From Subtercola sp. PAMC28395 (GTDB lineage Bacteria > Actinomycetota > Actinomycetes > Actinomycetales > Microbacteriaceae), in assembly GCF_018889995.1 (NCBI RefSeq), contig NZ_CP076547.1, positions 806,001-870,000 on the forward strand: a DNA stretch of 64,000 bases, given 5' to 3'. Shown one piece after another: positions 6,468 to 30,407 of the stretch (position 1 is its first letter; each line of letters begins with the position of its first letter). A program made the position numbers and the translations under genes. A model generated the notes under the pieces. It ran no database searches. It was given only the letters and a program-made list of their open reading frames with translations, and was not told the origin of the DNA.

Positions 6468-6490
6468 CTGTGAGTGGGTCTCATTCTCTG

Positions 6491-6788: not shown

Positions 6789-7109
6789 TCAGACAAGCCC
6801 AATTGCCCATTGCGAAGACGCCCGCCGGCACGCGACGATCCATCGGCGGCGGGCAACGGCCATCACCAGCAAGAAAATGCCAAGGCCGGCGAAAATGACG
6901 GTCACAACAGTCCCCGCGATGATCGCTCCGGGAGTCGGGTCTTGCAGCACAAGTGCACCGACGAACGCGCTGCCCGTAAGGAACATGCCCCCGAACAGCG
7001 CCCCACTCCGAGGGCTCTTGAGCGAAACACGGTAGGGCCCGGTCGTGTTGTCGCTGCCCATCCAAGCGAATGGTTCCCGCGGAAGCTCACCGAGCTGCGT
7101 GCGCCTCAT
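6789..7109 (-). CDS. Small two-helix membrane protein at the end of the secretion operon
   Basis: 106 residues. The first half (about 30) is soluble and basic. Two hydrophobic stretches follow: about residues 40-58 (ALFGGMFLTGSAFVGALVL) and 66-88 (IIAGTVVTVIFAGLGIFLLVM). A basic tail (ARRRW) comes next. The ATG overlaps the upstream stop (TGATG), so it is coupled to the preceding gene and is the last gene of the leftward operon. I do not recognise the family. Position after a WXG-type candidate substrate allows an immunity or anchoring role, but nothing in the sequence proves it. It could also be an unrelated small membrane protein. Confidence 0.65.
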   Translation of the reverse strand: MRRTQLGELPREPFAWMGSDNTTGPYRVSLKSPRSGALFGGMFLTGSAFVGALVLQDPTPGAIIAGTVVTVIFAGLGIFLLVMAVARRRWIVACRRASSQWAIGLV

Positions 7110-7855
7110 CACTCGACGCTCTCCTTTATTCGCACGAAATCCGCCAGAATCGCCAGAAGGCCAGCCGCGTCGACCCCTTCAGTTCTCCGCTGGTCGTCTT
7201 GGTCGTGAACGTCTGCGACATCCCAGAGTTCATCGTCCTGAGCGCGCACGAACAGGTGATTCTTGGCAAAGATGCTGGAGCCCGAACTCGCCTCGCTACC
7301 GAAATACACAACGCCGAGCGGGTGCCGCGCGACGCTGCCGTCGATGACCTGCTTCAGAAACGCTACGTCGGGTGCCGAAGGCTCCTTGACGACCATCTCC
7401 CATGATCCGAGGGCCGTCGGCTGCAGAAAGATCGACAGCTCGGGTGCCTGCAGGTACAGCGCCGCTTCGGCGCCGTTTTCCGTAATCAGTGCGATCTCCG
7501 TCCAACGAGCAGCGACCTGTAGCGTCGCAGCGAGCAGCCGAATCCCTCCTCGCGGCACCAGCAAATCACCCTCGAGCACAAGTTCACCCCGAGCAACCAG
7601 GCTCGACGCCCCGACAGCGACAATCTGTTCGGTCAGAAAATCTTCGTTGACCTGGAGAAACTCGAGGGCTTTCTGTCTCCGGATGCCCGCCGTCAGCGAA
7701 ATCGCGTACGCAATCTCAGCGGCGCCGAAGCCGACGACCTCATCCGGCCATTCAACGGTGCCCACGTCAACAGTGCCCACGTCTCGGGCGCTCGCTTCTG
7801 CGACGACTGCTTCAGTCGGGCTCGACTCGGTGTGGCTCGCATCGAACATGGTCAT
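7109..7855 (-). CDS. Soluble accessory protein of the WXG100 cluster (possible secretion chaperone)
   Basis: 248 residues, acidic, with no signal peptide or membrane segment. The ATG at 7855 is preceded by AAGGAG at 5-base spacing. A longer frame begins at 7924 and overlaps the upstream stop as TGATG but lacks a good ribosome binding site, so it remains an alternative. After a disordered N-terminus the protein alternates helices and strands (FGAAEIAYAISL, EGDLLVPRGGIRLLAATL, ARWTEIALI). This resembles in general form the EspG-type chaperones that escort ESX substrates, but I see no decisive motif. It follows the WXG-type candidate substrate, where a dedicated chaperone or immunity protein is often encoded. 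Confidence 0.7.
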   Translation of the reverse strand: MTMFDASHTESSPTEAVVAEASARDVGTVDVGTVEWPDEVVGFGAAEIAYAISLTAGIRRQKALEFLQVNEDFLTEQIVAVGASSLVARGELVLEGDLLVPRGGIRLLAATLQVAARWTEIALITENGAEAALYLQAPELSIFLQPTALGSWEMVVKEPSAPDVAFLKQVIDGSVARHPLGVVYFGSEASSGSSIFAKNHLFVRAQDDELWDVADVHDQDDQRRTEGVDAAGLLAILADFVRIKESVE

Positions 7856-7923
7856 TCTCGCTCCTTCTTGCTGCTCACTGGCTTCATGCTCACTAGCTGA
7901 TGAATTCTGTCTGTCCAAATCCA

Positions 7924-9024
7924 TCAGAAGGGCCAGACCTTTCGTGCATTCTTCGCGACGCTGTTGGCGAAGTCCTCAGCGCCGTGTGCGGCCGATTCAA
8001 CACCGTGAGCGGCTGCTGAGGCACCGTCGCCGATCGCCTTTCCGGTCGAGTTGGCTGCATCCCCGATCATTCTGCTCGTCACCTGGCCGCCAACTCTGAG
8101 GTTCTCATTCGATTCGTCGACGAAACTGTGGAACGCCGGAACCTTGTCGTAGGCGAGCGAACCCAATGCCATTCCTCCCGAGGCGAGCCCCGCAATCGCA
8201 TCAACCGGAGGGATCGGGATCATTGCCACCACACCGAGCCCCGTCTGGATCCCGTCGTAGACCGCCCTGCCGTTCTGCTTGTTCGCGATGTCAGAGCCGA
8301 CGGTGATAACACCGACGACGGCGCCCAGCGGGCCGAGCACCTTACCTACAGTGCCCAGAACAGAGGCGGCCGAACCGAGCTTGCCTGCGAAGGCGCTGTC
8401 GCCGAGCATCCGACTCACGTCTTGGGTCATGGCCTCCCAGTTCTTGCCATCAACGAAATCCGTTAGCGTGTCGAAGCCTTTAGCAAGTTTGCTGGATTTG
8501 AGACCATCCTCGAGGAAGTGCAGGCTAACCCACCGCTGAAGCTTGCTCCCAGCATCGATCGTGTCGATGAGGTCTTTCACCCCGCCCATGTTGTACATAT
8601 TGTCGAAAGTCTTCTTGCCCGCGAGAAACGTCGGGTTGGTCAGAAGGGCCTTGATCATGCCCCCGCCCACTCCGATCATGCCGCCGACCTCTTCGGGTAT
8701 CCGGCTCCAACCATCGAGGAGCCCGCCGGCACCGCCCGCAGAACCCCCGACTCCGGATGCCCGGCTAGCCTGATCCTGCTCGTCGGCGTTCGTGCGGAGA
8801 TTAGTCGCCGAGTTGCGCAGCAACCTGGCGGCCGCCGAAACATTGCGGCTGTACTCGGAATCCCAGGAGTGTCGAAACCGCACCGCAACCGGCCCGACCC
8901 ACGCACTGATCTGGATCTGGTGGCCGACGGTCAGTCTGGCGGCATCAAGTTTGTCGCCGAGCTGGTCGAACCTCTGCGCCAGTTCGCGCAGTTGGGCCAC
9001 ATCGGCCCCATATGCACCTGCCAT
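7924..9024 (-). CDS. WXG-type candidate type VII substrate with hydrophobic C-terminal region
   Basis: 366 residues. The first 100 form a helical hairpin like a WXG100 protein, with W42-V-G44-P45 at the turn. A Gly/Ala hinge (about 105-125) leads to a C-terminal region of about 240 residues. That region has glycine-rich hydrophobic segments (GAVVGVITVGSDIA; TGLGVVAMIPIPPVDAIAGLASGGMAL) and a tail of small and basic residues ending WPF. N-terminal WXG/LXG modules fused to longer C-termini are typical of secreted type VII effectors. I recognise no enzymatic motif in the C-terminus; a membrane-active function is conceivable. Start chosen at 9024 with a GAGG site. It lies 94 bases after the small WXG100 gene. 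Confidence 0.78.
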   Translation of the reverse strand: MAGAYGADVAQLRELAQRFDQLGDKLDAARLTVGHQIQISAWVGPVAVRFRHSWDSEYSRNVSAAARLLRNSATNLRTNADEQDQASRASGVGGSAGGAGGLLDGWSRIPEEVGGMIGVGGGMIKALLTNPTFLAGKKTFDNMYNMGGVKDLIDTIDAGSKLQRWVSLHFLEDGLKSSKLAKGFDTLTDFVDGKNWEAMTQDVSRMLGDSAFAGKLGSAASVLGTVGKVLGPLGAVVGVITVGSDIANKQNGRAVYDGIQTGLGVVAMIPIPPVDAIAGLASGGMALGSLAYDKVPAFHSFVDESNENLRVGGQVTSRMIGDAANSTGKAIGDGASAAAHGVESAAHGAEDFANSVAKNARKVWPF

Positions 9025-9118
9025 GCAAAATCCTCGTCTCGGGGGGTGGTGGTGCGAAAAATTGAGGGTGCCGGTTGTGGGGCCAAGCGGTGAGCCCGGC
9101 CCCACAACCGAACAAGAG

Positions 9119-9382
9119 CTACGCCGAAGCCGTCTCCTGGTCTTGAGCGTTCTTCGAGGCTTTCTGTGAGGCGTCTTTCAGTGCTGCGACGACCTGCTTC
9201 AGCTGCGAGGTGTACTCGCCCGACCATGCTTGGCGAAACTGCTCCGAGTCCGGCCCTGTCCACTGCGTGTTGCCGAGCGCCGCCGTCAGCGTGCTCAACA
9301 CGCCCTCGATGTCGCCCGCCTTCTGGTTGAGCTGACTGCTGAGCTGCCGAACCTGCTCGACGTCAAGACCCCAAACTGCCAT
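9119..9382 (-). CDS. WXG100 (EsxA/EsxB-like) secreted protein
   Basis: 87 residues, the normal size of ESAT-6-type proteins. Helix 1 (VEQVRQLSSQLNQKAGDI) and helix 2 (FRQAWSGEYTSQLKQVV) flank the diagnostic turn W41-T-G43-P. AGGAGAAGG precedes the ATG. It lies 133 bases downstream of the EccC/FtsK-type ATPase gene, the motor that exports such proteins. The larger WXG-type protein encoded next has its W-x-G-P turn at almost the same residue number, so the two could pair as a heterodimer. The classic C-terminal YxxxD/E export signal is not evident (tail ...QETASA). Confidence 0.95.
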   Translation of the reverse strand: MAVWGLDVEQVRQLSSQLNQKAGDIEGVLSTLTAALGNTQWTGPDSEQFRQAWSGEYTSQLKQVVAALKDASQKASKNAQDQETASA

Positions 9383-9515: not shown

Positions 9516-12500
9516 TCACGATTCACTGATCGCCACCTGGATCTTCATCGATCGGCCCCCCGCGACGAGGAAGCCGCGGCCTGGCGGAAAGTCCGCTCGC
9601 CTGATTCGGCCTGTCGAGGTTCCGAGCAGAGTGTCGCCGTCGAGGTCTCCTGGCGTGAGGAGCAGACCCCTGCGACCGGCTTTGAATGGCGCAGCCAACG
9701 TCCAGGCCTGCGACCAGGTCGAGGTCTCAGACTCGCCGACCACCAACTGCTCGGTTCGGGCGGCCATCTTGATGAGCCTGTCGATGGCGGCCTCGGCGTC
9801 AGAGCCGGTGTATTCAGTGACGTTCTCGATCAGAATCGCCACACTTCCGGGCTCGAGCTGACCGGATTCGAGACGCTGGATGAGAGCCGCGGCGCTCGCG
9901 CTCGCTGCGTCGATGTCGGTCGCAGACGCATCCCAGGTGCGACCTCGGCTGAGGGGGGTGCGGCGGGGGCTGAAGAACGCGAGATGGATGATCCGCGGGT
10001 CTCTGCGCAGAGAATCCGCGATGGTCGCCAAAGCCGTCGTGCGACCGCTGCCGGGAGGCCCGGAGAGCATGAACGTTCCCGTGGTGCCGATTCCGATGGG
10101 TGACAGGTACGCGTCTTCCACGCCGATGACGGGGCTGCCGTCACCGTCGCGGCCGGGCAAGGAGGCGAGCGGAATCATGTCGCCGAGCCGCTCGATCGGC
10201 GGCGCGGCTGCAAGCTTCTGCCTCTGCATGCTCGCCCCGAGCGCCTTCATCTGCCTCGCCTGGACGGCGACGTTCGAACTCGACCCGAGAATCGCAAGCT
10301 GCACCTCATTGCCGTCGACGATGCCTCGCCCCGGAGGCGACGCCATCGTCAGCACGTCTTTGGCGACCCCGAGCATCAGGTAGTCGTCTTCGGTGGCCAG
10401 CCGCAGCACGATGCGCTTCTGAACCGTCGATCCGATCGAGGTGGGAATGGAATTCGGCCTGTCGCCCGTCATCACGATGTGCACGCCCAGCTGGCGCCCG
10501 TCGGCGGCGATCTGGGCGAAGACCGTGAACCAGCTCGAGTTTGAGGCGAATTCGTAGGCCTCACGAAAGGCGGCCATTCCATCGATGAGCAGCAGGATGC
10601 GCGGCTCAGCGGGCTTCGACGCGAGCTGCCGGTACTCCCCGATCGTTCCCGCACCGAGTTCGGCGTACCGTTTCGCTCGATCTTCGACGAGGTCGCGCAG
10701 CTTGCGCAGCAGCCTCACGACCCGTTCGTCGTCGTCGCCAGAGACGATCGAGCCGACGTGCGGAAGGTCTTTGAGCATCCGCAGCCCGCCGGCGCCGAAG
10801 TCGAGGCCGTAGACCTGCACTGGGCCTCCCCGAAGGGTGACCGACGCGGCCACAGCGATGGTGCGGAGTGCTGCGCTTTTCCCCGAGCCGCCCGTGCCGA
10901 AGATCGCCATGTTGCCGTCACGATCGGGTTCGTAGAAGCACGTCGGCTGCGACTGCGATGCAGGGTCGTCGACGACGCCGATGACCAGCCGCGCATCCGT
11001 TCGCGGGTTGGGTACGAGCCGGAAGTCATAGACGGCCGCCAGCTCATCGAGCCACGGTCGCCGGGGTGCCGGAACCCCTGCACCCTCGGATGCCCGAGCG
11101 ATCGTCGACACGATGCGGGAGATGTCGGTCGGGCCGGGGTCGGCGACGACCGCCGCCTCGAGCTCGGGTACATCCCACACCGCGCCGCTGCCGAAGCCGA
11201 TCTCGCGGATGTCGACGCGGGGCCGAGGTGGCTCGCCGTCTGTCCAGCCACCCGCATACCCGGTCTGGAAGGCAGCGAGTCGACCGGGGCCTGTCTTGGC
11301 CGTTCCCCGGCCCGGAATCGTCGGGTCGAAGGAGGCGGCGATCGGGGTGCCCAGAATGTCGGTGGAGTCTTCGGCGTCGGCCATGCGCAATGCGATGCGC
11401 AGGTTCGTATTGGCCCGCAGATTGTCTTTGATGACGCCGGCCGGCCGCTGGGTCGCGAGGATGAGGTGCAGCCCGAGCGAACGGCCACGCTGCGCCACAT
11501 CGACGATGCCGTCGACGAATTCCGGTACCTCGGTGGCCAGAGCGGCGAACTCGTCGACGAAAATGAGCAGGCTGGGCGGCGTCTCGGGGTCACCCTGCTT
11601 CTCGAGCGAGACGAGATCCTTGGCTTTCTTGCGCTGCAGCAGGTGCTCGCGGAACCGCAGTTCTGCCCGCAACGAAGTCAGGGCTCGGCGAACAAGGTGA
11701 GGCGAGAGGTCGGTGACCAAGCCCACGGTGTGCGGCAGTAGAACACAATCGGCGAAAGCCGCCCCGCCCTTGTAGTCGACGAAGAGAAAGGTGACCCGGT
11801 CGGGGCTGTGAGCTGCGGCGAGGCCGAGCACCCACGATTGTAGAAACTCACTCTTGCCTGCCCCTGTTGTGCCGCCGACCAGGGCGTGCGGGCCCTGGGT
11901 TCTGAGGTCGAGGTGGAATGCCCCGGTACCCGAGTACCCCACGAGGGCGCGCAGGTTTCCCTCCGCCTTGCGGCGAACCGGCGGTGAGCCGTCGCGAACA
12001 ACCAACGAGCCGTTCTCGCGCCACCGATCAATCACCGCTGCGGGTTCGTTGATCAGCTCGGGGCCACTCAGGGCGGAGTAGGCGATCGATCTCGGGAGGT
12101 CTGACTCGTCGTCGACGGGCGAACCGACGTCGATTACGGGCGAAAGCGCTCGGGCGAGAAGGTGGGCGGTGTTCAGATCGACGGTTTCCGTGCGAATCGG
12201 GTGCGACTGCTCGCCCAGCCTTACGTGGCCGACCGCGGCATCACCGTCGGGCGTGAGGCTCAAGAATGTTCTGCAGACGGCCGGCAACTGGTCAGCCGAC
12301 GCCGCGCACCAGATGAAGTGCACGTTGGCATCGGCGCCTCGCTCGGCGAGTCGCGTTGCCCGTGCGCGATCGATCTGCGCGTCGTTCTCGATGATGACGA
12401 TCACAGAGGGCAGAAACGGCAGCGGCGTATTCTCATCGTCGCCCGCCTCTGCCGCGCCTGACTTCAGCCTGCCCCGAGGGGCAGGGGCCGCGCCCGCGGT

Positions 12501-13985
12501 TCGCTGCTCGATCAGTTCTTCGAGGCGGGCAAGCAGGGCCTGCACCGCGACGGGGTTGTCGGCCAGGTGGTCGCCAACCAGAGGGCTGTGCGCTGATGAG
12601 GTGTGCGGCATCCATTTCAGCCACTCCCACACGGGAAGCGAGCGTGCCGAAACGATCGCCGCGATGACAAGCTCGGCCGGCGAATGCAGGCCTGCGACAT
12701 GCAGAACGACGCCCCGGGCGACACCGTCGAGTACGTCTCGCGAGCCCGCAAGGCCCAAGGCACCCGTCGACCTCCAGTCGACCACGAAGGGAACGTCGTC
12801 GATCGTGCTGAACTCAATTGCAGCCGCCTCGAGCCGCGCCCAGTGCACGGGCAGCGTCTCGTTGCTGCCGGGCAGAACGAGGGAGCTTCGAGACGGTGCA
12901 GTTCCGGTGCCGAGACGAGCAGTGAGAAACGTTTCGTGCTCGGGCCGAACAGCCCACATCGTCGGCGTGTGCCGACGCATCGATTCGACAACCTCGGTGA
13001 CCGACGGTGACTCCGCATTGCGTGCGGCCCGCTCGGCAGCGTGAGCCTGTGCCTGCCGCTGGGCACTCGCCTCCATCGCCGCACCGAACTGCTGGGTCTG
13101 GGATTTCAGCATGCGGCCATTCGAGAGCTTCGTGTCGATGAACGTTCCCACAATGAGAAGTGGGCTCAGAGCCACGAACAGAAGACTCGCCAGCTGCTGG
13201 GTGATCACGTAGAGAACAACGCCCATAATGATCGGCGCGACGATCGACAGGTAAGGAAATCGCTGCCGAGCTGGCAGCTTGGGCGGCGTCGGTGCGACGA
13301 TCTCGATTCCCGGGAATCGAGCGACAACGCGAGGGTTGCGCACGAACTCGACGACGGACCCACTCTGCTCTGCTGACCCGAGCCGCAAGAGGGGCGCGAC
13401 GCTCAGCATTGTCTCGCCGACCGTGACCACGTCAGACGATGTCAGTGAGGCGCGAACGATCTGTTGCCCGCCGAGCAGTGTGCCGTTCGCCGATTCGAGA
13501 TCGATGATCTCGACATACTCCGAGACGTTGACGCGGGCGTGCCGTTTCGAGACGAGAGAGTCGCCCAGCCGAACGTCAACCCCGTAGTCGCGGCCGATCG
13601 TGCTCGCGCCGAAGGGGAGGTCGAACGTCTTGCCCCGATCGGGCCCTGCCACCACAGTCACCCGGGCCGCCGCCTGTCCCCGTTGCTCGCCGGGGCGAAT
13701 GAAATCGCTTCCGGCGTAGACCAACTCGATGCTCGAACCAGAGCGCAGCCCTGACTCCGCGAGATCAGAATCCGGGTCGAGAAGTCGCACAGGCGTCGAA
13801 ACGCCGGTGGCATTCGTGCCGCCAGTCTGAATCGTCAGGTTCGGCTCTTCGGTTGCGCCCGAGCGCAGCGGGTCGGCGACGAAGAGCGCCGAAGCGATGT
13901 CTTTGACCAGCGCCGTCGAATCGGCGGTGATCTCGACGTCGACATCGGACTCACCGGCACGTTTGAGTGTGACTTTTACGCGCAT
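9516..13985 (-). CDS. EccC/EssC-type FtsK-SpoIIIE ATPase with ubiquitin-like and FHA N-terminus
   Basis: 1489 residues; the motor of the type VII-like apparatus. Residues 1-90 look like a beta-grasp/YukD-type domain (VKVTLKRAGESDVDVEI ... SGLRSGSSIELVY). An FHA domain spans about 110-190 (STIGRDYG, SKRHARV, SANGTLLGG). Two membrane helices lie near 245-285. Three tandem FtsK ATPase modules follow. Module 1 has Walker A GGTTGAGKS near 705 and Walker B LLIFVDEFAAL. Module 2 has GTGGSGKS near 1031 and LLLIDGM. Module 3 has GPPGSGRT near 1311 with a weak Walker B (AILIENV). The start at 13985 (TGATG overlap with the upstream stop) is preferred over a longer Arg-rich reading. N-terminal FHA domains recall EssC of Firmicutes rather than mycobacterial EccC. 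Confidence 0.93.
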   Translation of the reverse strand: MRVKVTLKRAGESDVDVEITADSTALVKDIASALFVADPLRSGATEEPNLTIQTGGTNATGVSTPVRLLDPDSDLAESGLRSGSSIELVYAGSDFIRPGEQRGQAAARVTVVAGPDRGKTFDLPFGASTIGRDYGVDVRLGDSLVSKRHARVNVSEYVEIIDLESANGTLLGGQQIVRASLTSSDVVTVGETMLSVAPLLRLGSAEQSGSVVEFVRNPRVVARFPGIEIVAPTPPKLPARQRFPYLSIVAPIIMGVVLYVITQQLASLLFVALSPLLIVGTFIDTKLSNGRMLKSQTQQFGAAMEASAQRQAQAHAAERAARNAESPSVTEVVESMRRHTPTMWAVRPEHETFLTARLGTGTAPSRSSLVLPGSNETLPVHWARLEAAAIEFSTIDDVPFVVDWRSTGALGLAGSRDVLDGVARGVVLHVAGLHSPAELVIAAIVSARSLPVWEWLKWMPHTSSAHSPLVGDHLADNPVAVQALLARLEELIEQRTAGAAPAPRGRLKSGAAEAGDDENTPLPFLPSVIVIIENDAQIDRARATRLAERGADANVHFIWCAASADQLPAVCRTFLSLTPDGDAAVGHVRLGEQSHPIRTETVDLNTAHLLARALSPVIDVGSPVDDESDLPRSIAYSALSGPELINEPAAVIDRWRENGSLVVRDGSPPVRRKAEGNLRALVGYSGTGAFHLDLRTQGPHALVGGTTGAGKSEFLQSWVLGLAAAHSPDRVTFLFVDYKGGAAFADCVLLPHTVGLVTDLSPHLVRRALTSLRAELRFREHLLQRKKAKDLVSLEKQGDPETPPSLLIFVDEFAALATEVPEFVDGIVDVAQRGRSLGLHLILATQRPAGVIKDNLRANTNLRIALRMADAEDSTDILGTPIAASFDPTIPGRGTAKTGPGRLAAFQTGYAGGWTDGEPPRPRVDIREIGFGSGAVWDVPELEAAVVADPGPTDISRIVSTIARASEGAGVPAPRRPWLDELAAVYDFRLVPNPRTDARLVIGVVDDPASQSQPTCFYEPDRDGNMAIFGTGGSGKSAALRTIAVAASVTLRGGPVQVYGLDFGAGGLRMLKDLPHVGSIVSGDDDERVVRLLRKLRDLVEDRAKRYAELGAGTIGEYRQLASKPAEPRILLLIDGMAAFREAYEFASNSSWFTVFAQIAADGRQLGVHIVMTGDRPNSIPTSIGSTVQKRIVLRLATEDDYLMLGVAKDVLTMASPPGRGIVDGNEVQLAILGSSSNVAVQARQMKALGASMQRQKLAAAPPIERLGDMIPLASLPGRDGDGSPVIGVEDAYLSPIGIGTTGTFMLSGPPGSGRTTALATIADSLRRDPRIIHLAFFSPRRTPLSRGRTWDASATDIDAASASAAALIQRLESGQLEPGSVAILIENVTEYTGSDAEAAIDRLIKMAARTEQLVVGESETSTWSQAWTLAAPFKAGRRGLLLTPGDLDGDTLLGTSTGRIRRADFPPGRGFLVAGGRSMKIQVAISES

Positions 13986-14710
13986 CAGTCCTCGTTCTGG
14001 GGTGCGTCGAGCAACGGCAGGTCGATACGGGTGACGATGCGGGTCGCGATGGCGTGCTCGATCAGGCGCGCCCGTCGGTTGGTGGCGTACGAGGTCAGCC
14101 CGCCACGCAGGCCCTGAACGCCGGCACGATCGAGCTTGTCGCACACGTTGTCGAGCTTGCGGTTGAACCGGGTGCTTGCCCAGCCCAGCCGCTTGGCTGC
14201 CATCACCGACGTCGGCAGCTCGCTCATTCCCGTGCCTTCGCGCAGCAGCATCGGTTCAGCAAGGGCCAGGATGACCAGCTTCTGCGACGGCGTGAACGTC
14301 ACGGCCCCTACGGTGGTCACTCCGCTGGCGGCCTCACCCAAGCCGCTGTCAGAGAACGTCGGCTGCGACGCGTGCACCGTGAACTCGTAGGTCGTCGGGC
14401 CGGCAGTGAAGATGACCACTAACGTCGAGAACACCACGGGCAGGCGCGCACCCGGCGCGAGCCAGGCCTGAACACGACCCTCGCCGTCAGATACCGTCGC
14501 CGACAGCCGGGTACCGACATTCGACAGCCACCAGAGGCCGTCGGTGTAGTGAATCTCGAGAAAACGACGGTGCAGAAACTGGTTGTCGTCGATGCCGAGG
14601 TCGGCGTCGCGGCCGATCGAGAAGACCGTGTCGGCCTCGAGCGAGAACCATTCGCCGCAGTATTCCACGCTGACACCATCACGGGTGCGTGCCGCATCCA
14701 CGCTGCTCAT
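13985..14710 (-). CDS. FHA-like domain protein with C-terminal winged-helix-like region
   Basis: 241 residues. The first 110 resemble an FHA fold (FSIGRDADLGID, LHRRFLEI), but the usual Ser-x-x-His/NGT phosphothreonine-binding set is partly replaced, so binding may be lost or altered. The C-terminal 90 residues (SQKLVILALAEPMLLREG ... AAKRLGWASTRFNRKLDNV) read as a helix-turn-helix domain. The start overlaps the kinase stop as ATGA and the stop overlaps the EccC start as TGATG. An FHA domain joined to a DNA-binding-type domain inside a kinase/phosphatase/secretion operon suggests a phospho-responsive adaptor or regulator. The function is not established. Confidence 0.8.
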   Translation of the reverse strand: MSSVDAARTRDGVSVEYCGEWFSLEADTVFSIGRDADLGIDDNQFLHRRFLEIHYTDGLWWLSNVGTRLSATVSDGEGRVQAWLAPGARLPVVFSTLVVIFTAGPTTYEFTVHASQPTFSDSGLGEAASGVTTVGAVTFTPSQKLVILALAEPMLLREGTGMSELPTSVMAAKRLGWASTRFNRKLDNVCDKLDRAGVQGLRGGLTSYATNRRARLIEHAIATRIVTRIDLPLLDAPQNED

Positions 14711-22082: not shown

Positions 22083-22085
22083 CTG

Positions 22086-23390
22086 CTATGCCGCCCGCCT
22101 CAGACCTCGAGCGAGCTCACCGAGGTCGCCGAGCGAGAGCACCGCTGCACCCGCGATCGTGCGGGCCGACACATCGATGCTCGTGCCGCACAGCACGGCG
22201 ATCACGCGCACACCGATGGGCACGTAGCTCGACGCCAGCCGAATCTGCTCGGGTGTCGCGGTCGCACCGAACAGCAGCACGGCCACCGAGGCACTCGGCA
22301 CCGTCGACCCCAGCTCCCGAGAGAGCTGCACGAATGTCGACCGGGACTCTGCGGTGACGATAGCCGACAGCCCGTCGAGCAACTGCTTGCGTGAGCCCGA
22401 CTTCACCCGCTCGCCCTGAACGAGTACGGTGAGCTGCTTCTCTTCACGCAGCGCCTGGGCACCCAGCGACCCGCACACCGAAACGGCGAGCTCGAATTCG
22501 TCAGAGGTGGCGTAGTCGGCCGGGTTGCGCGACAGCGCGATGGCGAGGTGCGACCGGCGGGTCTCTTCGAACTGCCTGACCATGAGTTTGCCGGTGTGCG
22601 CGAACGACTTCCAGTGCACGTGCCGTCGGTCGTCGCCCGGAATGTATTCGCGAAGGGCGTGAAACGACACGTCGTCGCTTGACAGGTCTTTGGTCGGCTC
22701 GCCTTCGAGGTCACGAAAGAAGCCCGTCGACGAACCCTCGAGAGCGACGGTTCGCGGATGCACGAAAAGCTCGACCGGCTCGGTCCAGTTCACAACTCGC
22801 CTGAACAACCCGAGAGGATCACCCCGAACCGACCTGACCGGCCCGACGGTCAGAACGGTGCGCCGGTGCGTAGGAATCGTGAAGAGATCTTCGTGGATGT
22901 CAGTCGCACCGAGCCGCGGAACGTGAAACGACGCCAACCCCCTGCCGACCGGCAGCTCGATCGTCGCCGCAAGTAGCGTTCGCGACGACGTGTTGCCCAC
23001 TACGACGTGACCGACGGCACGCTCGCCCACGACCACACGATTCGCCGCCAGGTCGAGGTCGATCGAATACGCCGAGCGGCCCGCGATGAACGGCAGCGCG
23101 AGCATGAGCACAGCGGTGGCAGCGAGCGCCACAGCGAGCAGCTCCTGCCAGCCCAGAATCTGACCGGCGACCCAGCTCGTCAGTGCAAGGGCAAGAACGA
23201 CCCAGCCGAACACCGTCGGCACCCGCAGTACACTCCGCGCGGCAAGAACAGCGGGGCGAATAAGCGGCCAGATGAGCACGCGTGAAACCTCGACCGCCGG
23301 CGCAACAAGGCGGCCGGCACTCTGCCGCGCGCCAGAGAACCCGCGGGCGATGCGGGCTGGTGCGATGCGGATGGTCGAGACGACGCTCAT
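22086..23390 (-). CDS. DUF58-domain membrane protein
   Basis: 434 residues. Two adjacent membrane helices lie near residues 55-95 (VFGWVVLALALTSWVAGQIL; LAVALAATAVLMLALPFIAG). A beta-rich middle follows, then the DUF58 signature REYIPGDDRRHVHWKSFAHTG near 260 with a downstream vWA-like part. The start at 23390 overlaps the MoxR stop by ATGA, and its stop is three bases from the TgpA-like start. DUF58 proteins are usually partners of MoxR ATPases in envelope-assembly or chaperone-like systems. No enzyme activity is known to me for this group. Confidence 0.9.
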   Translation of the reverse strand: MSVVSTIRIAPARIARGFSGARQSAGRLVAPAVEVSRVLIWPLIRPAVLAARSVLRVPTVFGWVVLALALTSWVAGQILGWQELLAVALAATAVLMLALPFIAGRSAYSIDLDLAANRVVVGERAVGHVVVGNTSSRTLLAATIELPVGRGLASFHVPRLGATDIHEDLFTIPTHRRTVLTVGPVRSVRGDPLGLFRRVVNWTEPVELFVHPRTVALEGSSTGFFRDLEGEPTKDLSSDDVSFHALREYIPGDDRRHVHWKSFAHTGKLMVRQFEETRRSHLAIALSRNPADYATSDEFELAVSVCGSLGAQALREEKQLTVLVQGERVKSGSRKQLLDGLSAIVTAESRSTFVQLSRELGSTVPSASVAVLLFGATATPEQIRLASSYVPIGVRVIAVLCGTSIDVSARTIAGAAVLSLGDLGELARGLRRAA

Positions 23391-24361
23391 GCGGCCGGGC
23401 GCCTCGTCTGCGGCGCGGCGACACTGCCCATGACCCGCGACAGCACCTTCTCGGCCGTCATGCCGGCGAACTCCGCCTCGGGGTCGAGCACGATGCGGTG
23501 GGTCCACACGGAGGGCGCAAGGTCTTTGATGTCGTCGGGAGTGACGTAAGGCCGGCCCTGTGCCGCCGCCCAGACCTTCGCCGAACGGATCATCGCCAGG
23601 GCTCCACGCACCGAAACGCCGAGCCGGGCATCCGACGAATTGCGCGTCTCTTGGGCGAGCTCGGCGGTGTACCGCAGCACCGAGCTGTCGGTGTGTACTG
23701 TCGTCGCGAGGTCGGCCATCGCCGCCACCGCGTCGGTGGTGATCATGGGGGTGAGAGCGGCGGCCGGGTTGCGCGACGCTGAGCTCGCCAGAATCAGCTC
23801 AGCCGAGGCGAGGTCGGGGTAGCCGATCGACGTCTTGATCAGAAAGCGGTCGAGTTGCGCCTCGGGCAGCCGGTAGGTTCCCGCCTGCTCGATCGGGTTC
23901 TGGGTCGCGATGACCATGAACGGTCGGCCGACCGCGTGCCCGACACCGTCGACAGTGATTCGCGACTCCTCCATCACCTCGAGCAGTGCCGACTGGGTCT
24001 TCGGCGACGCGCGGTTGATCTCGTCTGCGAGCACGATCGACGCGAAGATCGGGCCCTTGTGAAACTCGAAACGGTGCGAATCCTGGTCGTAGATCGAAAC
24101 GCCGGTCACGTCAGACGGGAGAAGGTCAGGCGTGAACTGGATGCGTTGGTTCGTACCCTGCACCGTCGCCGCGAGCGCCTTCGCGAGCATCGTCTTACCC
24201 GTACCCGGTGCATCTTCGAGCAGCACATGCCCTTCGGCCAGCATCGCCGTCAAAACGAGTTGGATGACCCGACTTTTGCCGAGCACAGCCTTACCCACAT
24301 TGGCGACGAGCGTTTCGAACGTCGCGGCGAACCACTGCGCCTCTTCGGTGGTCATTGTCAT
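23387..24361 (-). CDS. MoxR-family AAA+ ATPase
   Basis: 324 residues. Walker A is DAPGTGKTMLAKAL near 48-62, Walker B is IVLADEINRASP near 110, and ATQNPIEQAGTYRLPEAQLDRF is the sensor-1/arginine-finger region typical of MoxR (residues near 155-177). The start is ATG at 24361 with AAAGGA upstream; longer readings lack a site. Encoded with DUF58 and TgpA-like partners, it probably remodels or activates a membrane or extracellular complex using ATP. Inference: it assists assembly of the secretion apparatus encoded in the same operon. Confidence 0.94.
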   Translation of the reverse strand: MTMTTEEAQWFAATFETLVANVGKAVLGKSRVIQLVLTAMLAEGHVLLEDAPGTGKTMLAKALAATVQGTNQRIQFTPDLLPSDVTGVSIYDQDSHRFEFHKGPIFASIVLADEINRASPKTQSALLEVMEESRITVDGVGHAVGRPFMVIATQNPIEQAGTYRLPEAQLDRFLIKTSIGYPDLASAELILASSASRNPAAALTPMITTDAVAAMADLATTVHTDSSVLRYTAELAQETRNSSDARLGVSVRGALAMIRSAKVWAAAQGRPYVTPDDIKDLAPSVWTHRIVLDPEAEFAGMTAEKVLSRVMGSVAAPQTRRPAA

Positions 24362-24377
24362 GTCTTCGTCCTTTCTT

Positions 24378-27300
24378 TCATCCGCCCCACGACCCATTGA
24401 TCTGGAGCCAAGGTCCGTTGCGCCAGGGCTCAACCGAAAAGCTGTCCGTAACACCAGAGCCACATGGCACCGTGATCGACCCATTTGGGGTGCTGAAGCT
24501 TCCGGCTACGCTCCCGACTTTGTTGACATTGCCGGACTGCGTGTTGGGTGGAACGTTCCAGCACCGAAACATTGAAACGTCGGTCCAGTTCCCCGCTGCG
24601 ACGTTCTGCCAGTGGTACGTGACTGTGTCGCCGCTCCTTGTGAGCCACAGCCTCATAGGCGGCGGGTCGTTCGCGTTGCCCGACCAGTCGGCCGTCGAGG
24701 TGCCTGCGGCATTGCTGTAGGAGACGTGGATCGACGTCGACTGGCTCGGCTGAAGCCCGCCGTTCGTCTGATTGCCGTTGCCGTTGCCGTCGACCCCCGG
24801 GCTCGCTGAGTTCAGGGCGCTGCCGTTCGAGTTGACGTTCCACACGAACTGAACCGCGTTGTCTTGGCGGTTGACCGCCTGCAGCGTGATGATCGGCTTG
24901 CCGAACGGTGAGACCGCATTTGATGTCGCCGCCGGGCCGCTCTGGCTCACCACCTTCGACGATTCGTAGATCTGCACCGAGTAGCTCGAACCGTTCTGCA
25001 GACCGCCGATGTGAATGCTCGTGCTTCCCGCACCGACCGAACCGGAACCGCCGCCGTTGACCGAGTAGTTGTAGGTGATCTCGTCGCTTCGAGAGCCGTT
25101 GAGGTCGCCCGCAGCGAAGGTGACGTCGAGAACCCCGTCTCCGGGTGTTGCGACGACGTTCTTCGGCGCTCCCGGTGGGGCCGCAGCACGGCGTGCATCG
25201 GATTGCCCACTGGTAGCGCCCTGCCCGGCCTTGTTCTTGGCGCTCACGGTGAACGTGTAGTCGGTCTGCGAGATCGAGACAGTGGCGTTCGCGGAGTTGC
25301 TCGGTGCGGCGAACGAGTTGACGACCGCCCCGTTCTGCAGAACGTTGACCGTGTAGCCCGCGATGGCGTCACCGTTGTTGTTGGGTACGCTCCAGGTGAG
25401 GGCGATTTGCGCCTGCCCGCCGACGGGCTGGGCGGCCGACGTCGTCGGCGCCCCCGGGGCATCCGGAACCCCTGCGGGCACCATCGGCGCCGACATGCCG
25501 CTCCAGTCGGAGGGGTCTGGTGCGCGGTTGTGCGCCTGAACGCGCACGGTGTACGCGGTGCCGTTCTCGAGGCCCGTCCACACTGTCGAGTTGCCGCTGA
25601 CGGTCTGCTGGGCTGACCCGAAGGCGGGCAGCGGCGAGATCTCAAGCGTGTAGCTCGTCACAGGAGACCCTGTGGTGACCGGAGTGTTCCACGAGACAGT
25701 GAGGCTCTTGTCACCGAAGACAAGACTGGGTGGGGCGGGGGCGGATGGCCGTGCATCCGGCCGTGCGACAGCCGAAGCAGGCGATGGGTCAGACTCACCG
25801 ATCGCATTCGTCGCCGTCACCGTGAACGTGTACTCGACATCGTTCGTGAGGTTGCTCAGGGTGCAGGTGGTCGAGGCGCAGGTATTCGTCGTGCCCTTGT
25901 CGCTGCGCACGGTGTATGAGGTGATCACCGAACCGTTGTTGACCGGAGGCGTCCAGGAGAGCACCACCGTGTGGTCCTGGATCGAGGTCACACTGGGTGT
26001 CGACGGTGTTCCCGGCTTGCCCTTGACGGTGAGGCGCACGCGCCCGTCGACTTCGCGGTCGGGGTCTTTCGTCGAATCCTGCACGCGGTAGCGCACGACC
26101 ATCGTTCCGACGAACGTGCTACTCGGCGTGATGGTGACGTCATTGCCGGTGAATGTGGATGACCCGTCACCTGTTTCGACCGTCGCACCGATGACCGTGA
26201 GCGCCTTGCCCGAGAACGGGCTGGTGTCGTTACCAAGCACGCTCACGGTGACGGCCTTGCCCTGGGCCGCGTTGTCGACGATGTCGTCGGCGGTCGTGGC
26301 CAGCGGTCTCGTCGAGGCGCTCACCGACAGGTTGAGCGTTCCCGTCACGGGGCTGTTAGTGCCGTCGCTGACGGCGATCGTGACCGTGCCCGTCTGGCCC
26401 TTCGTCGCGTCAGAGGCGGCGCTCGCCTTGAGGTTCTGGCCGTCGACCGACAGGGAGAATCCGGCAGGCACACTGCCGTCGATCGAGTAGCTCAGCTTCT
26501 GCAGGTCTTCAGGGTCGGGGTCTTTCGACATCGCCCGAAGGTTCACGGTGATCGGGTCTTCGCCCGGAGCGACGTTCACCGTTCCGCCGATGAAACTCGG
26601 CGGCCGGTTCGACGGGGCAAGCACGGTGATCGGGATTACCAGAACCGAGGTGAGGCCGGTCGGGTCGTCGGGCCCCGTTCCGTCGGTCACCTCGAACGAG
26701 ATCGCATCGGGACCGTAGTAGTCGGCGGCCGGGGTGTAGACGAGAGTCGTCTCATCTTTGATGAGAGCGTCACCGTTCGCGTGGTTCGCGGTGACCTTGT
26801 TCGCGACAGTGATGCGGGGCGTCTTGCCCTTCGCCACGTCGACGTAGTCGCTGAGTTTGAGCTCGACGCTCTGCCCACTCTTGACCTCAACGGGCTTCAC
26901 CGTCGACTTCAGCGTGGGGCGAACCACGCCGGTGCCAGGCACCAGCACGAATGCCGACGCCGTGAGCCCGTCAGGGTCTGTCACCGTGTAGAGCACGATC
27001 TGCGGGTCTACGGCCAGCGCTATGGTCACGCTGCCTTTGCTCATCCCCGTCACGGCAGGGTCGTCGCTCGAGACCGAGAGCTGGTCGGCCACCCCGTCGG
27101 GATCTTCGTCGTTCGTCAGCACATTCACGCTGACCGACGTCTGGCCGACGATTCCGGCAGCCGAGACTCGGTCGTCGCGCGCGATCGGCGCCAGCAGCGG
27201 CGCGCTCGCCGAGACGGTGACCTGCAGCACGCCGTAGGCCGTTCCGCCCCACGGATCGGCCACCTGGTACCCGATGCTGTAGGTGCCTTCTTTGTCGGGT

Positions 27301-30300
27301 GCCGATACCACGACGCGGTCTTTCGCGATCTCGGCGGTGACACCGTCGGCGGGCTGCAGGCTGCCGTCTACCAGCGAGAGTAGGTCACCATCGGGGTCGG
27401 TGTCATTGACGAGCACGGGAACCGCGACCTCGCGACCGGGCTTGACCGTGATCGAGTCTTCGACAGCATTCGGGTTCTGGTTGGTACTGCCGGGCTTGGC
27501 AATGCCGACGAGAACCGAGCCCACCGCCGACGCGCCCGGCCGATCTCGCACGACATAGGTGAACGAGTCGGTTCCGGTCGACTGAGCGTACGCCTCGTAG
27601 ACCAGCCAGCTGTCGCCGACCTCAGTGATGCGTCCCTTCTGAGGCGCAGTGCCCTGCCCCACGAGGTCGACCGAGTCTCCATCAGGGTCGATGCCTGTCA
27701 GCGTCACGGGAATGCGCACCGTCGTTCCCGACAATACGCGGGCGGTCAACGGCAACGGTCGTGGCGCAGAGTTCGACGCCGCATCGACCGGCAGAATGCG
27801 AATGGTGACGTATCCGGCGTCTTTCTGACCGAGGCTATCCATCACGTCATAGGTCGCGTACACGGTCTTGGCAACGGGCCCCGCCTTGAAGCGCAGCGTG
27901 TTTTCGGACACGAACAGATCCCCGTCGGCTGGCGACACGAGTGGGGCCACCAGCGTCGGAGACAGCGTGATCGTGTCTCCGTTAGGGTCGTAGTCGTTAG
28001 CGAGCACCGGAATTGTGACATAGTCGCCCGCCCGAACGCTGACCGTGTCGTCGACCGCGACGGGCGGATCGAGCTGCGCCGGGGCCGGCACGGGAATGAT
28101 GACGACATCCCCGGTCGACGATGACACCCCGTTCGACACCGTGTAGGTGAACGTCACAGGCCCGGTCATCGCATTGCGCGCCGACACCTTCAACACCCTA
28201 TGTTCGAGCACCGCAACGGTCAGCCCGGCGGAATCCGGCACCGACACCGACTGCACGACGAGGATTCCCCCATTCGGGTCTGAGTCGTTCTGCAGCACGT
28301 CGACGAGCACGTTTCGCCCGGTCGTGAGCAGGCCCTGGTCTCGAACCGCGATCGGCGGCGAATCAGAAGTCACCGGCTGCGTGACGTCGATGCGCACCAG
28401 ACCGGCGACCGTATTGGGCCCATCCGACGCGAAATACTGCACGTAGTATGTCTTCGCCGCCGTTGCGTTGAACGTGAACGTTCCCGCGGCGTAGTCCGGC
28501 GTCAGCGTCGTACCGGGGCTGCCATCGCCCGCCACTTTCGCCAGCCGCAGCGCGACACCGCTCGGGCTGATGTCATTCAGCAGCGGTGCGACCAAGACAT
28601 CTTGGCCGACCGTGGTGGTGAAGTGATCGCCGTTCGTAATCGGCTTAGTCGAGCCTGCTGCCTTCACGTCGACGCGCAACGTTCCCTTAGCGGTATCGGT
28701 GCCGTCAGACACCGATACCGCAATCGTCTTGCGGCCTTCAACCCCACCGACTGCGTCATACGTCACCTTGCCGTCGGGCGTGAAGGTCACGATGTCGGTA
28801 TCGCTCGACTCAGCTCCCGTGAGAATGAGGTCGTCTCCGTCGGGGTCGCTCCAGTCCGCCATCACGTTGACAGTGGTCGTCTTGCCGTTCTCGACCGTCG
28901 TCGTCGACGGTCGCTTCTGCACGGGCGGCCGGTTCGTACCCGCCGCGCTCACACTCAGCGTCACCGTGGCCTCGGCCTGGCCTCCCCGGCCGTCATCGGC
29001 CTTGTATCGAAAACTGGCCGACCCCGACGCATCGGCGTTCACCGTCACCTGCAGCTGTGAACCCCCGAAGATCGGCTCGACGGTTCCGATCGACGGCTGA
29101 CTGCCCGACAGTGTCGCCGTGAGAATATCGCCGTCTGCATCGGTGTCATTGTCGAGAACCGGCAGGATGATCGTTCTCCCTGCTCTCACACCGAAACTGT
29201 CGTCGACGGCAACCGGAGGAGTGTTGGCGGTCGAACGCTGGGGCAGGACGTTCGCGATCTGGTCTTGGTTGTCGGCGTTGTCGTCGAGTTCGCTCTGCGA
29301 CGGTGGCGGCGTCACATCGGCCCAGTTGTCGACCTGCAGCATGCTCTGATTGACCAGCCACATGAGCCCGCTGGTGAGGTCGTTGAGAACGACCACGTCA
29401 CGGTTCACCCGAAACCGCAGAACCGAATCGGGCTGCAGGTTGGGCACGGCAGCCGTCACGTCGTTGCTGTCGCCGGCACAGTCCCTGACATATTCCGCGG
29501 ACCCTGACCAGGCTGCGTAACCGCATCCGCCGAGGTACACCGGAGCCGCAGGAACCCCCTTCGCGCCAGCATCCGTTCGCTGGGCCTGACCGCCGTCGAG
29601 AGGTTGGGTGATGAGCTGCGTCGGGGTGGCGAGCAGAACACTCGAGCTGTCGGGGCCACTCTGTTGAAGAACGGCACCCCCAGCATCCGGAACCTGAACG
29701 GTCTTGCCCCCGGGCAAGTAGAGGGTCGAACTCGTCGAGTCGAAGATGGCCGCGTTCGCCCCGACAGCACTGATAGTCAGCACCGCGGTGTCGGCGAATT
29801 GCGGTAGCGACGTTCTGGTGGCCGGCTCGTACCCGCCAACCCCATCGGGTGCGATCACGACCAGCTCGTGATTGTCGCTAGACACAGCCCGCACGGCCCC
29901 ATCAGGCCCCACCGCAACAGCAGAACCAGCACCGAGCGTCACCATCGGGTCGGTGCCCTTCGCCGAGAACGAGTCGACCTGTGACGCCGGCACAACGTAG
30001 AGCGCACCCGTGTCAGGCTCGAGAATCGCCGTCGTCTCGCCACCGAGCACCACGGTCGCCTGCGTGGGAAGAGTCACGTCGCCGCCGAAGACCGACTTCG
30101 CTGGGTCGATCGTGTTCAGAGTCGAATCGGCGGTATCTACGGTCATCACCGTGTTGCCCGACTGCAGAACGTCGAACTGATCCGTCTTCGTTCGCAGACC
30201 CTCGTCGAGCACCTGCGACTGGTGGTTGAGGTGCCCCACCAGCAGCCCGCTGGCCTTGGTGACCCACACCCCGCCGTCATTAAGTTCGACATTGGCGGTC

Positions 30301-30407
30301 TTGAAGCCCTGGTAGAAGATCGCAATCAGGGCGAGCACCAGCGACGACGAGCAGATGATCGCCACAGAGATCAGCGAGCGTCTTCTGCTCAGTATGCCCC
30401 TCAGCAC
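24378..30407 (-). CDS. Giant surface protein with Ig-like/cadherin-like and FN3 repeats
   Basis: About 2009 residues. A single membrane helix lies near residues 10-35 (VAIICSSSLVLALIAIFYQGF) after an Arg-rich start (SRRRS), giving a long outer part. Residues about 40-350 are beta-rich and may form a propeller-like domain. About ten Ig-like/cadherin-like repeats follow, with the recurring pattern VDD..V..G....PVL.ND.DPDGD. Three to four fibronectin-III domains occupy about 1465-1840. A C-terminal domain has Trp-rich strands. The DPDGD turns suggest calcium binding. I chose the GTG at 30407 because GGGGGAG precedes it at 8 bases; ATG at 30476 has no site. As the first gene of the operon it is probably the external scaffold or cell-wall-spanning part of the apparatus. 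Confidence 0.88.
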   Translation of the reverse strand: MLRGILSRRRSLISVAIICSSSLVLALIAIFYQGFKTANVELNDGGVWVTKASGLLVGHLNHQSQVLDEGLRTKTDQFDVLQSGNTVMTVDTADSTLNTIDPAKSVFGGDVTLPTQATVVLGGETTAILEPDTGALYVVPASQVDSFSAKGTDPMVTLGAGSAVAVGPDGAVRAVSSDNHELVVIAPDGVGGYEPATRTSLPQFADTAVLTISAVGANAAIFDSTSSTLYLPGGKTVQVPDAGGAVLQQSGPDSSSVLLATPTQLITQPLDGGQAQRTDAGAKGVPAAPVYLGGCGYAAWSGSAEYVRDCAGDSNDVTAAVPNLQPDSVLRFRVNRDVVVLNDLTSGLMWLVNQSMLQVDNWADVTPPPSQSELDDNADNQDQIANVLPQRSTANTPPVAVDDSFGVRAGRTIILPVLDNDTDADGDILTATLSGSQPSIGTVEPIFGGSQLQVTVNADASGSASFRYKADDGRGGQAEATVTLSVSAAGTNRPPVQKRPSTTTVENGKTTTVNVMADWSDPDGDDLILTGAESSDTDIVTFTPDGKVTYDAVGGVEGRKTIAVSVSDGTDTAKGTLRVDVKAAGSTKPITNGDHFTTTVGQDVLVAPLLNDISPSGVALRLAKVAGDGSPGTTLTPDYAAGTFTFNATAAKTYYVQYFASDGPNTVAGLVRIDVTQPVTSDSPPIAVRDQGLLTTGRNVLVDVLQNDSDPNGGILVVQSVSVPDSAGLTVAVLEHRVLKVSARNAMTGPVTFTYTVSNGVSSSTGDVVIIPVPAPAQLDPPVAVDDTVSVRAGDYVTIPVLANDYDPNGDTITLSPTLVAPLVSPADGDLFVSENTLRFKAGPVAKTVYATYDVMDSLGQKDAGYVTIRILPVDAASNSAPRPLPLTARVLSGTTVRIPVTLTGIDPDGDSVDLVGQGTAPQKGRITEVGDSWLVYEAYAQSTGTDSFTYVVRDRPGASAVGSVLVGIAKPGSTNQNPNAVEDSITVKPGREVAVPVLVNDTDPDGDLLSLVDGSLQPADGVTAEIAKDRVVVSAPDKEGTYSIGYQVADPWGGTAYGVLQVTVSASAPLLAPIARDDRVSAAGIVGQTSVSVNVLTNDEDPDGVADQLSVSSDDPAVTGMSKGSVTIALAVDPQIVLYTVTDPDGLTASAFVLVPGTGVVRPTLKSTVKPVEVKSGQSVELKLSDYVDVAKGKTPRITVANKVTANHANGDALIKDETTLVYTPAADYYGPDAISFEVTDGTGPDDPTGLTSVLVIPITVLAPSNRPPSFIGGTVNVAPGEDPITVNLRAMSKDPDPEDLQKLSYSIDGSVPAGFSLSVDGQNLKASAASDATKGQTGTVTIAVSDGTNSPVTGTLNLSVSASTRPLATTADDIVDNAAQGKAVTVSVLGNDTSPFSGKALTVIGATVETGDGSSTFTGNDVTITPSSTFVGTMVVRYRVQDSTKDPDREVDGRVRLTVKGKPGTPSTPSVTSIQDHTVVLSWTPPVNNGSVITSYTVRSDKGTTNTCASTTCTLSNLTNDVEYTFTVTATNAIGESDPSPASAVARPDARPSAPAPPSLVFGDKSLTVSWNTPVTTGSPVTSYTLEISPLPAFGSAQQTVSGNSTVWTGLENGTAYTVRVQAHNRAPDPSDWSGMSAPMVPAGVPDAPGAPTTSAAQPVGGQAQIALTWSVPNNNGDAIAGYTVNVLQNGAVVNSFAAPSNSANATVSISQTDYTFTVSAKNKAGQGATSGQSDARRAAAPPGAPKNVVATPGDGVLDVTFAAGDLNGSRSDEITYNYSVNGGGSGSVGAGSTSIHIGGLQNGSSYSVQIYESSKVVSQSGPAATSNAVSPFGKPIITLQAVNRQDNAVQFVWNVNSNGSALNSASPGVDGNGNGNQTNGGLQPSQSTSIHVSYSNAAGTSTADWSGNANDPPPMRLWLTRSGDTVTYHWQNVAAGNWTDVSMFRCWNVPPNTQSGNVNKVGSVAGSFSTPNGSITVPCGSGVTDSFSVEPWRNGPWLQINGSWGG

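Follow-up and report, generated by a model that had tools for sequence, protein, structure and literature searches.

Does the gene cluster at positions 6789 to 30407 of the window encode one secretion apparatus, or does it join two systems that also occur apart? The window, a 64,000-nucleotide stretch of Subtercola sp. PAMC28395 (positions 806001-870000 of a single 3.21-Mb contig), carries here fourteen co-directional genes of the minus strand, running from 30407 to 6789, which a preliminary description had presented as a type VII-like secretion operon rich in phospho-signalling parts. We find that the operon is made of two separable units: an envelope signalling set (unit 1) and an EssC-type ATPase with WXG100 proteins (unit 2). 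Unit 1 is what has been published, from Bifidobacterium, as the PFNA cluster, and the motor of unit 2, similar to those of type VII secretion systems (T7SS), belongs to a family that is common in Actinomycetales. In our best reading, the operon would be a T7SS variant that has not been catalogued and is controlled by kinase and FHA proteins. The PFNA signalling cluster was already known; the combination of module and motor, its breadth and a predicted ubiquitin-like domain fused to the ATPase are new.

The operon is predicted from strand and gene overlaps. At nine of the thirteen junctions, neighbouring genes share 1 or 4 nt (ATGA, GTGA or TGATG), and the other four are gaps of 3, 16, 94 and 133 nt, so that the earlier wording of overlaps at almost every junction was too strong. 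As the 133-nt gap precedes the WXG100 gene, a second promoter is possible there; a promoter and terminator scan of positions 6300-10500 gave nothing exceeding shuffled sequences. Domains were called with Pfam and NCBIfam profiles, and hydrophobic or transmembrane (TM) segments by hydropathy (Table 1). The core of the preliminary description is borne out by these fourteen genes and their profile matches: a type VII-like motor and a WXG100 protein lie in one predicted transcription unit with phospho-signalling genes, with no EccB or EccD match.

The PFNA operon of Bifidobacterium comprises pkb2, fn3, aaa-atp, duf58 and tgm, with prpC, a hypothetical gene and fha; in the accessible text of that study (PMC8430577), B. 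longum GT15 is the one strain for which its co-transcription was demonstrated. In the window, the kinase, giant FN3, MoxR, DUF58 and transglutaminase genes are likewise co-directional, the five core families are joined by a phosphatase and an FHA protein, and the giant-MoxR-DUF58-TgpA block keeps the same order. Unlike in the PFNA operon, the kinase gene lies downstream, the gene of h264 (our marker for unit 1) is added, and the operon continues into the EssC-type ATPase and WXG100 genes. The giant protein is of the same family as the FN3 protein of Bifidobacteriaceae (profile scores of 918-956 bits). Its sole hydrophobic segment, a putative membrane anchor, is N-terminal (residues 35-53 of a 2032-aa frame), with none at the C-terminus, and its first 350 residues look propeller-like by eye. 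Also by eye, the kinase retains HRDIKP and DFG, and the phosphatase DGMGGH and DN. Four FHA-bearing proteins had been announced: Pfam recognises three (the RDD-FHA protein, FHA471 and the ATPase), which by eye retain the FHA signature residues, whereas h264 is FHA-like by eye only, lacks the usual S..H/N-G residues and stays without a Pfam match up to E 10. In the ATPase, the FHA residues G-R, S..H and N-G are invariant in 10/10 aligned sequences.

The module's DUF58 protein is matched in 19 of 41 genomes of a family (f82) that we take, from its 16S pattern, to be Bifidobacteriaceae; two of the matches are weak. Nine of these loci were read over 20 kb each: kinase-giant-(MoxR)-DUF58-TgpA is found in all nine, with MoxR labelled in eight, and the EssC-type ATPase in none. 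Six of the nine also have PP2C and FHA genes, the FHA gene being on the opposite strand in five of the six, unlike in the published operon. Module profiles built from loci without any member of this family still recover the bifidobacterial clusters. The PFNA cluster was called unique to bifidobacteria (PMC8430577), a claim contradicted by the module loci outside bifidobacteria, and a mycobacterial moxR operon is described as resembling it (PMC12067865). In their accessible text, two PFNA studies (PMC8430577, PMC6803598) mention neither type VII, FtsK nor WXG100, and in the part of the literature accessible to us we found nothing that joins PFNA with type VII secretion or reports this gene combination. 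The system had been called poorly described; this does not hold for unit 1, published as the PFNA cluster, and does hold for its link to T7SS.

The motor of unit 2 had been presented as EccC-type. It is a T7-type FtsK/SpoIIIE ATPase, but it is nearer to EssC of Bacillota (TIGR03928; 508 bits, cut-off 778) than to mycobacterial EccCa/EccCb (344/310 bits, also under the cut-offs); we reject a mycobacterial-type EccC motor, since the EssC profile scores better and EccB and EccD have no match. Genome-wide, EccB and EccD gave zero matches at E 0.001 and the best mycosin match, in a 1155-aa frame, reached 37 bits for a cut-off of 279, EccE being outside the search. The reported absence of these components is thus upheld for EccB and EccD, mycosin being sub-threshold only, and the EccB, EccD and mycosin set of T7SSa is not found here. 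Among the best 120 of 516 matches, Cryobacterium roopkundense provides the closest named relative of the ATPase (68% identity), followed by Agreia, Herbiconiux, Cellulosimicrobium and others. The WXG100 protein has the W-x-G turn and narrowly misses the two curated cut-offs (26.7 of 27.3 bits; 34.3 of 44.85). The 366-aa protein, put forward as a candidate effector, shows a weak WXG100 likeness at its N-terminus (E 0.02 in the window scan, E 0.0077 in the genome search). Up to E 1, the genome has no WXG100 match besides these two, and both are inside the operon. The general T7SS pairing of an EccC/EssC-type ATPase with a WXG100 protein is encoded here, both members scoring under their curated cut-offs. 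For the protein encoded at 7109..7924, column identity averages 56% over 15 aligned sequences, those with names coming from Agreia, Subtercola and Herbiconiux. An EspG-like chaperone was considered for h271 as an idea only and set aside, with no family matches.

The pairing of the module with the ATPase recurs in many related bacteria, and their coupling is strong. With at least 800 bits as our own line for the presence of the ATPase, 127 of 396 Actinomycetales genomes have the ATPase, 164 have h264 and 100 have both (odds ratio 11.9, p 2e-25, kinship uncorrected). Five of the hundred have no listed h264 position; among the 95 placed pairs, 62 lie within 1 kb and 17 more within 20 kb, all on the same strand, and the others lie farther apart on the same contig (6) or on another contig (10, some of which may be close in reality where the assembly is a draft). 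Matches of any kind at 1e-30, T7SSa-like EccC and FtsK included, occur in 98 of 396 Actinomycetota genomes. Twenty-one ATPase neighbourhoods were labelled, the window included; they are of unequal length, down to 0-5 kb on one side, and as labels are the best-scoring open frames, overlapping frames can hide genes (MoxR and DUF58 are unlabelled in some loci). With these limits, they contain the giant gene in 9, MoxR in 9, DUF58 in 10, TgpA in 10, RDD-FHA in 8, PP2C in 9, FHA471 in 9, the kinase in 12 and h264 in 9. One genome (G008) keeps the entire window gene order up to the ATPase, six have permuted or partial module sets near it (G367, G196, G355, G354, G129, G094), and RDD-FHA is found alone in G237, G280 and G265 (plus h264 in the last). 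The permuted orders in G367, G196, G094 and G355 speak for retained linkage. A short-WXG profile matched near 17 of the 21 ATPases, and 5 of those 17 show the W-x-G turn; this is a weak test, since the profile was built from matches in the same and neighbouring loci and is partly circular.

The module also occurs without the motor. In the 64 h264 genomes under the 800-bit line, the ATPase match reached E <= 1e-100 in 28 and 1e-70 to 1e-100 in nine; twenty had only a match at 1e-50 to 1e-70, taken for FtsK, and seven had none at 1e-50. We read around h264 in 18 of the 64. In ten of these loci, the 36.6-40 kb read contain the kinase, the giant gene and TgpA (nine also with a MoxR and/or DUF58 label) and lack a T7 ATPase; five have part of the signalling genes only; and three (in G473, G636 and G601) have a T7SSa-type EccC nearby, EccD being confirmed in G473 and G601. 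Since the module adjoins T7SSa-type loci, it accompanies two different T7 lineages; the loci in question are L128/L169 (G473), L140/L170 (G636) and L137/L167 (G601). The idea that the module is an obligate part of a T7SS is rejected by the loci without ATPase. An independent distribution of the upstream genes had been named in advance as evidence that would break up the system; it is what the ten loci display, yet linkage is strong, with 62 of 95 pairs adjacent.

At profile level, the ATPase starts with a predicted fused ubiquitin-like domain of the EsaB/YukD type, in the first ~95 residues, which are conserved among its relatives. A profile of ten window-clade sequences brings up a redesigned ubiquitin (0.0015), then an aldolase (0.015) and SAMP1 (0.5), and 1/10 of the relatives' N-termini matches YukD (3.2e-4). 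We compared them with nine T7SSd-type N-termini from seven isolates (including Bifidobacterium mellis, Bombiscardovia coagulans, Winkia neuii and Catenulispora pinistramenti) and two metagenome-assembled genomes of Bifidobacteriaceae; the T7SSd gene set was seen in B. mellis (G460), in G508 and partly in G781, and is assumed for the other T7SSd-type ATPases used. Their profile alone ranks ubiquitin-like proteins first (0.0013), with a redesigned ubiquitin at 0.012 and an APC protein at 0.044. In hhalign, the two groups match across 82 columns (probability 74, E 2.9e-5; unrelated control 0.1), and the joint profile, made of 27 N-termini, retrieves a redesigned ubiquitin at 4.3e-10, Hydra-1ubq at 1.8e-5, ubiquilins from 0.0015 and EccD1 at 0.13. 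YukD is the commonest Pfam match among its members (7/27, best 2.4e-4). Below 0.01, the joint profile matches 46 of 65 ATPase N-termini (profile members included) and 4 of 4290 other open reading frames (ORFs): two EccD above the NCBIfam cut-off, one sister-genome counterpart (not scanned) and one ATPase start in G244. Under the same threshold, the ten-sequence profile alone matches 23/65 ATPases and 0/4290 ORFs, and the T7SSd profile alone 13/65 and 3/4290. A stand-alone YukD was not found in the genome (one match, E 0.48). On contig C15 of G244 (L076/L077), the ubiquitin-like start, recognised by eye, is in a different reading frame from the FHA-ATPase part.

Several of these results pull the other way. 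The window's own ATPase N-terminus, taken alone, has zero Pfam matches; among single T7SSd N-termini, two have no match and YukD is reached in 1/9, at 18.8 of 27 bits. Non-ubiquitin chains (the aldolase at 0.015, the APC protein at 0.04) stand in the lists of the smaller profiles, the window-clade profile alone matches no named T7SSd below 0.01 (best 0.02), and a one-sequence comparison with an EccD domain was negative, a result later overtaken by the larger profile. The survey of Garrett, Higginson and Palmer could not find a ubiquitin-like protein for T7SSd and deemed this surprising (PMC11217815, main text). By our profile results, T7SSd-type ATPases likewise carry a predicted fused ubiquitin-like domain, and the missing part of T7SSd is a part of its ATPase.

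The lack of EccB, EccD, EccE and mycosin had been treated as a puzzle; in itself it is not one, since T7SSc, d and e are likewise listed without any of these, and T7SS loci with kinases, phosphatases, FHA proteins and giant Ig proteins are already on record (PMC11217815, main text). Like T7SSd, composed of TsdA, C, D, H and I (same source), the window has an FHA-bearing EssC-type ATPase with a fused ubiquitin-like domain, a WXG100 protein, a kinase and a giant Ig protein, in Actinomycetota; it differs by other kinase and giant families, by the lack of a recognised TsdH (no single-TM short gene was recognised beside the kinase or giant gene) and by added PP2C, FHA, MoxR, DUF58 and TgpA genes. 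The terms MoxR, DUF58, transglutaminase, fibronectin and PFNA do not occur in the main text on T7SSd (PMC11217815). T7SSe of Bacillota also has, besides a kinase, a giant protein and an FHA ATPase, a PPM phosphatase (TseF) and a separate FHA protein (TseJ) (PMC11217815, main text). Like T7SSe, the window adds a phosphatase and a separate FHA protein to this set; T7SSe differs in having a separate TseB and two WXG100 genes and is known from Bacillota only, and FHA471 has no DUF6382 match, on which ground we reject it as TseJ. With T7SSb (EssC/EsaB/EssB/EsaA), the window shares EssC as best NCBIfam match of the ATPase and the lack of EccB and EccD; T7SSb is not known to have EccB, EccD, EccE or mycosin. 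Unlike T7SSb, the window ATPase is under the EssC cut-off, EssB and EsaA have no match among the window proteins scanned (neither was searched genome-wide), and an apparently active kinase stands where EssB has a pseudokinase.

What, then, does the operon do as a whole? On balance, we favour the view that in it a PFNA-type module for envelope signalling is joined to a phospho-gated, T7SS-like motor that is related to T7SSd and has a fused ubiquitin fold; gating by phosphorylation would be the likeliest mechanism, and we hold it with moderate confidence. It is improbable that the locus is simply a T7SSd, even though the ATPase has the same architecture, down to the fused ubiquitin-like domain, and a kinase and a giant Ig protein are present. 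In a FastTree phylogeny of 65 ATPases (midpoint root, support values not read), the window branch neighbours the Bifidobacteriaceae T7SSd/TsdC clade but is separate from it. With the profile of the module kinase, module kinases reach at least 291 bits and the T7SSd kinases of G460, G508 and G781 reach 118-126, the T7SSd giant protein of B. mellis has no match to the giant-protein profile at 1e-5, and, as said, no TsdH-like gene is recognised. B. mellis itself has both a PFNA set and a T7SSd, as separate loci ~14 kb apart; the T7SSd genes encode a kinase of 577 aa, proteins of 147 and 1798 aa and an ATPase of 1523 aa. We reject the assignment to T7SSd on gene content, by comparison with B. mellis and with the published set as given in the main text. 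That the extra genes would build the pore, with the giant protein as a wall-spanning conduit in place of EccB, EccD and EccE, is also very unlikely. Giant Ig-rich proteins do occur in T7SSd and e, and TsdI was proposed to span the envelope (PMC11217815, main text). The giant family is nonetheless kept in loci without a nearby T7 ATPase, 27 of the 64 h264 genomes under the 800-bit line have at best an FtsK-like match, and the giant protein's single hydrophobic segment is N-terminal, its C-terminus having none; the T7SSd giant of B. mellis fails its profile. The earlier proposal of these genes as pore candidates is undercut by the joint presence of kinase, giant and TgpA without ATPase in 10/18 h264 loci and 9/9 Bifidobacteriaceae loci.

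These same loci also fit a third possibility, that a PFNA sensor or adhesin and a T7SS-like exporter share a transcript for expression only and have no contact. It would also account for ATPases with little or no module nearby (G237, G280, G736, G727 and G683, in windows of unequal length) and for the 133-nt gap before the WXG100 gene. Against such independence stand the 62 of 95 pairs that are adjacent and co-directional, with 17 more within 20 kb and an order permuted in several genomes, and the presence of the module beside T7SSa loci in three further genomes; we regard it as rather unlikely. Returning to the coupled system, we would tentatively extend it into a widespread actinobacterial T7SS variant, with EsaB fused onto the motor and gated by the PFNA kinase-phosphatase-FHA circuit through pThr-x-x-Arg, of which the bifidobacterial PFNA would be a remnant or free-standing control half; we put this broader proposal at somewhat less than even.

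How could such gating operate? The membrane kinase would sense the cell surface directly by its outside domain, by way of the giant protein, or both; its targets would be acidic-Thr-x-x-Arg sites in the kinase linker and in the tail of the phosphatase. The FHA domains of the ATPase, the RDD protein and FHA471 could then dock on these phosphosites and gather the motor at the envelope, the PP2C phosphatase resetting the circuit. MoxR-DUF58-TgpA may mature or load the giant surface protein; together they would serve the envelope module rather than act as dedicated pore parts, and the exported proteins would be the WXG100 protein and the 366-aa protein with its WXG100-like front. FHA domains read the residue at +3. 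Both the phosphatase tail and the kinase linker set an Arg at Thr+3, mostly after acidic residues, which makes Thr-x-x-Arg a candidate FHA docking motif. In phosphatase homologues, [DE]TxPR is present in 14/30 (0.3 expected from shuffles) and TxPR within the last 50 residues in 15/30 (0.4 expected); TRxR is present in the linker of 21/35 kinase homologues (2.8 expected). In kinases, Arg at Thr+3 is the most enriched acidic-Thr context (68 versus 24.5). The motif is found in loci with and without the ATPase. No TxPR excess is seen in h264 and FHA471, and a looser, first version of the acidic-Thr motif was about two- to sixfold above shuffles in most families, with no excess in FHA471, the giant protein and h264.

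Other results weigh against this coupled, phospho-gated system. In phosphatases, Arg at Thr+3 is just 1.8-fold enriched and Pro at Thr+2 leads; the motif is missing from 15/30 phosphatase tails and 14/35 kinases, and is absent from the six phosphatases and six kinases of Bifidobacteriaceae examined. As the motifs were noticed in the sequences in which they were then counted, the expectations are not independent tests. With regard to linkage, 16 of the 95 placed pairs are distant or on separate contigs, 64 of the 164 h264 genomes are without an ATPase of at least 800 bits and 27 of the 127 ATPase genomes are without h264, to which the ten h264 loci without a T7 ATPase are to be added. The first WXG profile matched in just 6 of the 21 ATPase neighbourhoods, and the short-WXG profile left 4 of 21 without a match.

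The locus joins two literatures that we did not find linked, that of PFNA, studied as a bifidobacterial immune-sensing cluster, and that of T7SS variants, and the fused domain supplies the ubiquitin-like part reported missing from T7SSd. Control of T7 export by Ser/Thr phosphorylation has been raised as a possibility (PMC11217815, main text), and this operon offers a system outside disease-causing mycobacteria and staphylococci in which to ask whether such a switch exists.

Table 1. The fourteen genes of the predicted operon, in order of transcription (positions in the window).
Product	Position	Strand	Evidence
Giant surface protein, Big_9/fn3	24378..30407	-	2009 aa from GTG 30407; Pfam Big_9 10 stretches, fn3 3 stretches
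MoxR AAA+ ATPase	23387..24361	-	AAA_3 1.3e-62, AAA_lid_2 4.3e-23
DUF58 protein, two hydrophobic segments	22086..23390	-	DUF58 7.3e-10, hydropathy
TgpA-like membrane transglutaminase-fold protein	19743..22082	-	Transglut_core 6.5e-14; 7 hydrophobic segments
RDD membrane protein, FHA at C-terminus	18625..19746	-	RDD 1e-13, FHA 2.6e-6
PP2C phosphatase, C-terminal tail with D-T-V-P-R	17771..18628	-	PP2C_2 1.1e-8; Stp1-like 187 bits (cut-off 230)
FHA471, FHA at C-terminus	16359..17774	-	FHA 1.3e-7; N-terminal 176 aa: 0 Pfam families
Ser/Thr kinase, presumed outside domain, linker with T-R-V-R	14707..16362	-	Pkinase 7.9e-38; one TM helix 422-440
h264, FHA-like and helix-turn-helix-like by eye; module marker	13985..14710	-	No Pfam match
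EssC/TsxC-type ATPase: predicted ubiquitin-like ~1-95, FHA ~100-200, two TM helices, FtsK-like ATPase domains	9516..13985	-	
WXG100 protein, TsxA-like	9119..9382	-	TIGR03930 2e-8
366-aa protein, WXG100-like N-terminus, candidate substrate	7924..9024	-	WXG100 E 0.0077 in genome search
Protein without Pfam match, possible substrate partner	7109..7924	-	15 homologues besides own record
Small protein, two hydrophobic segments	6789..7112	-	Hydropathy; DUF202 at E 0.024 only

In three of 61 Bifidobacteriaceae genomes (G780, G792 and G801; L099, L100, L101 and L111-L115), ATPases exceed the EssC cut-off of Bacillota, and two of them form a separate branch in the ATPase tree; they were possibly acquired from Bacillota. 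Around the operon, a tRNA-Ser gene (6490-6575, minus strand) lies directly downstream. Just upstream, three divergent genes (30771-33689, plus strand) encode a LuxR-type response regulator, a histidine kinase-like protein and a third product, and are possible regulators of the operon.

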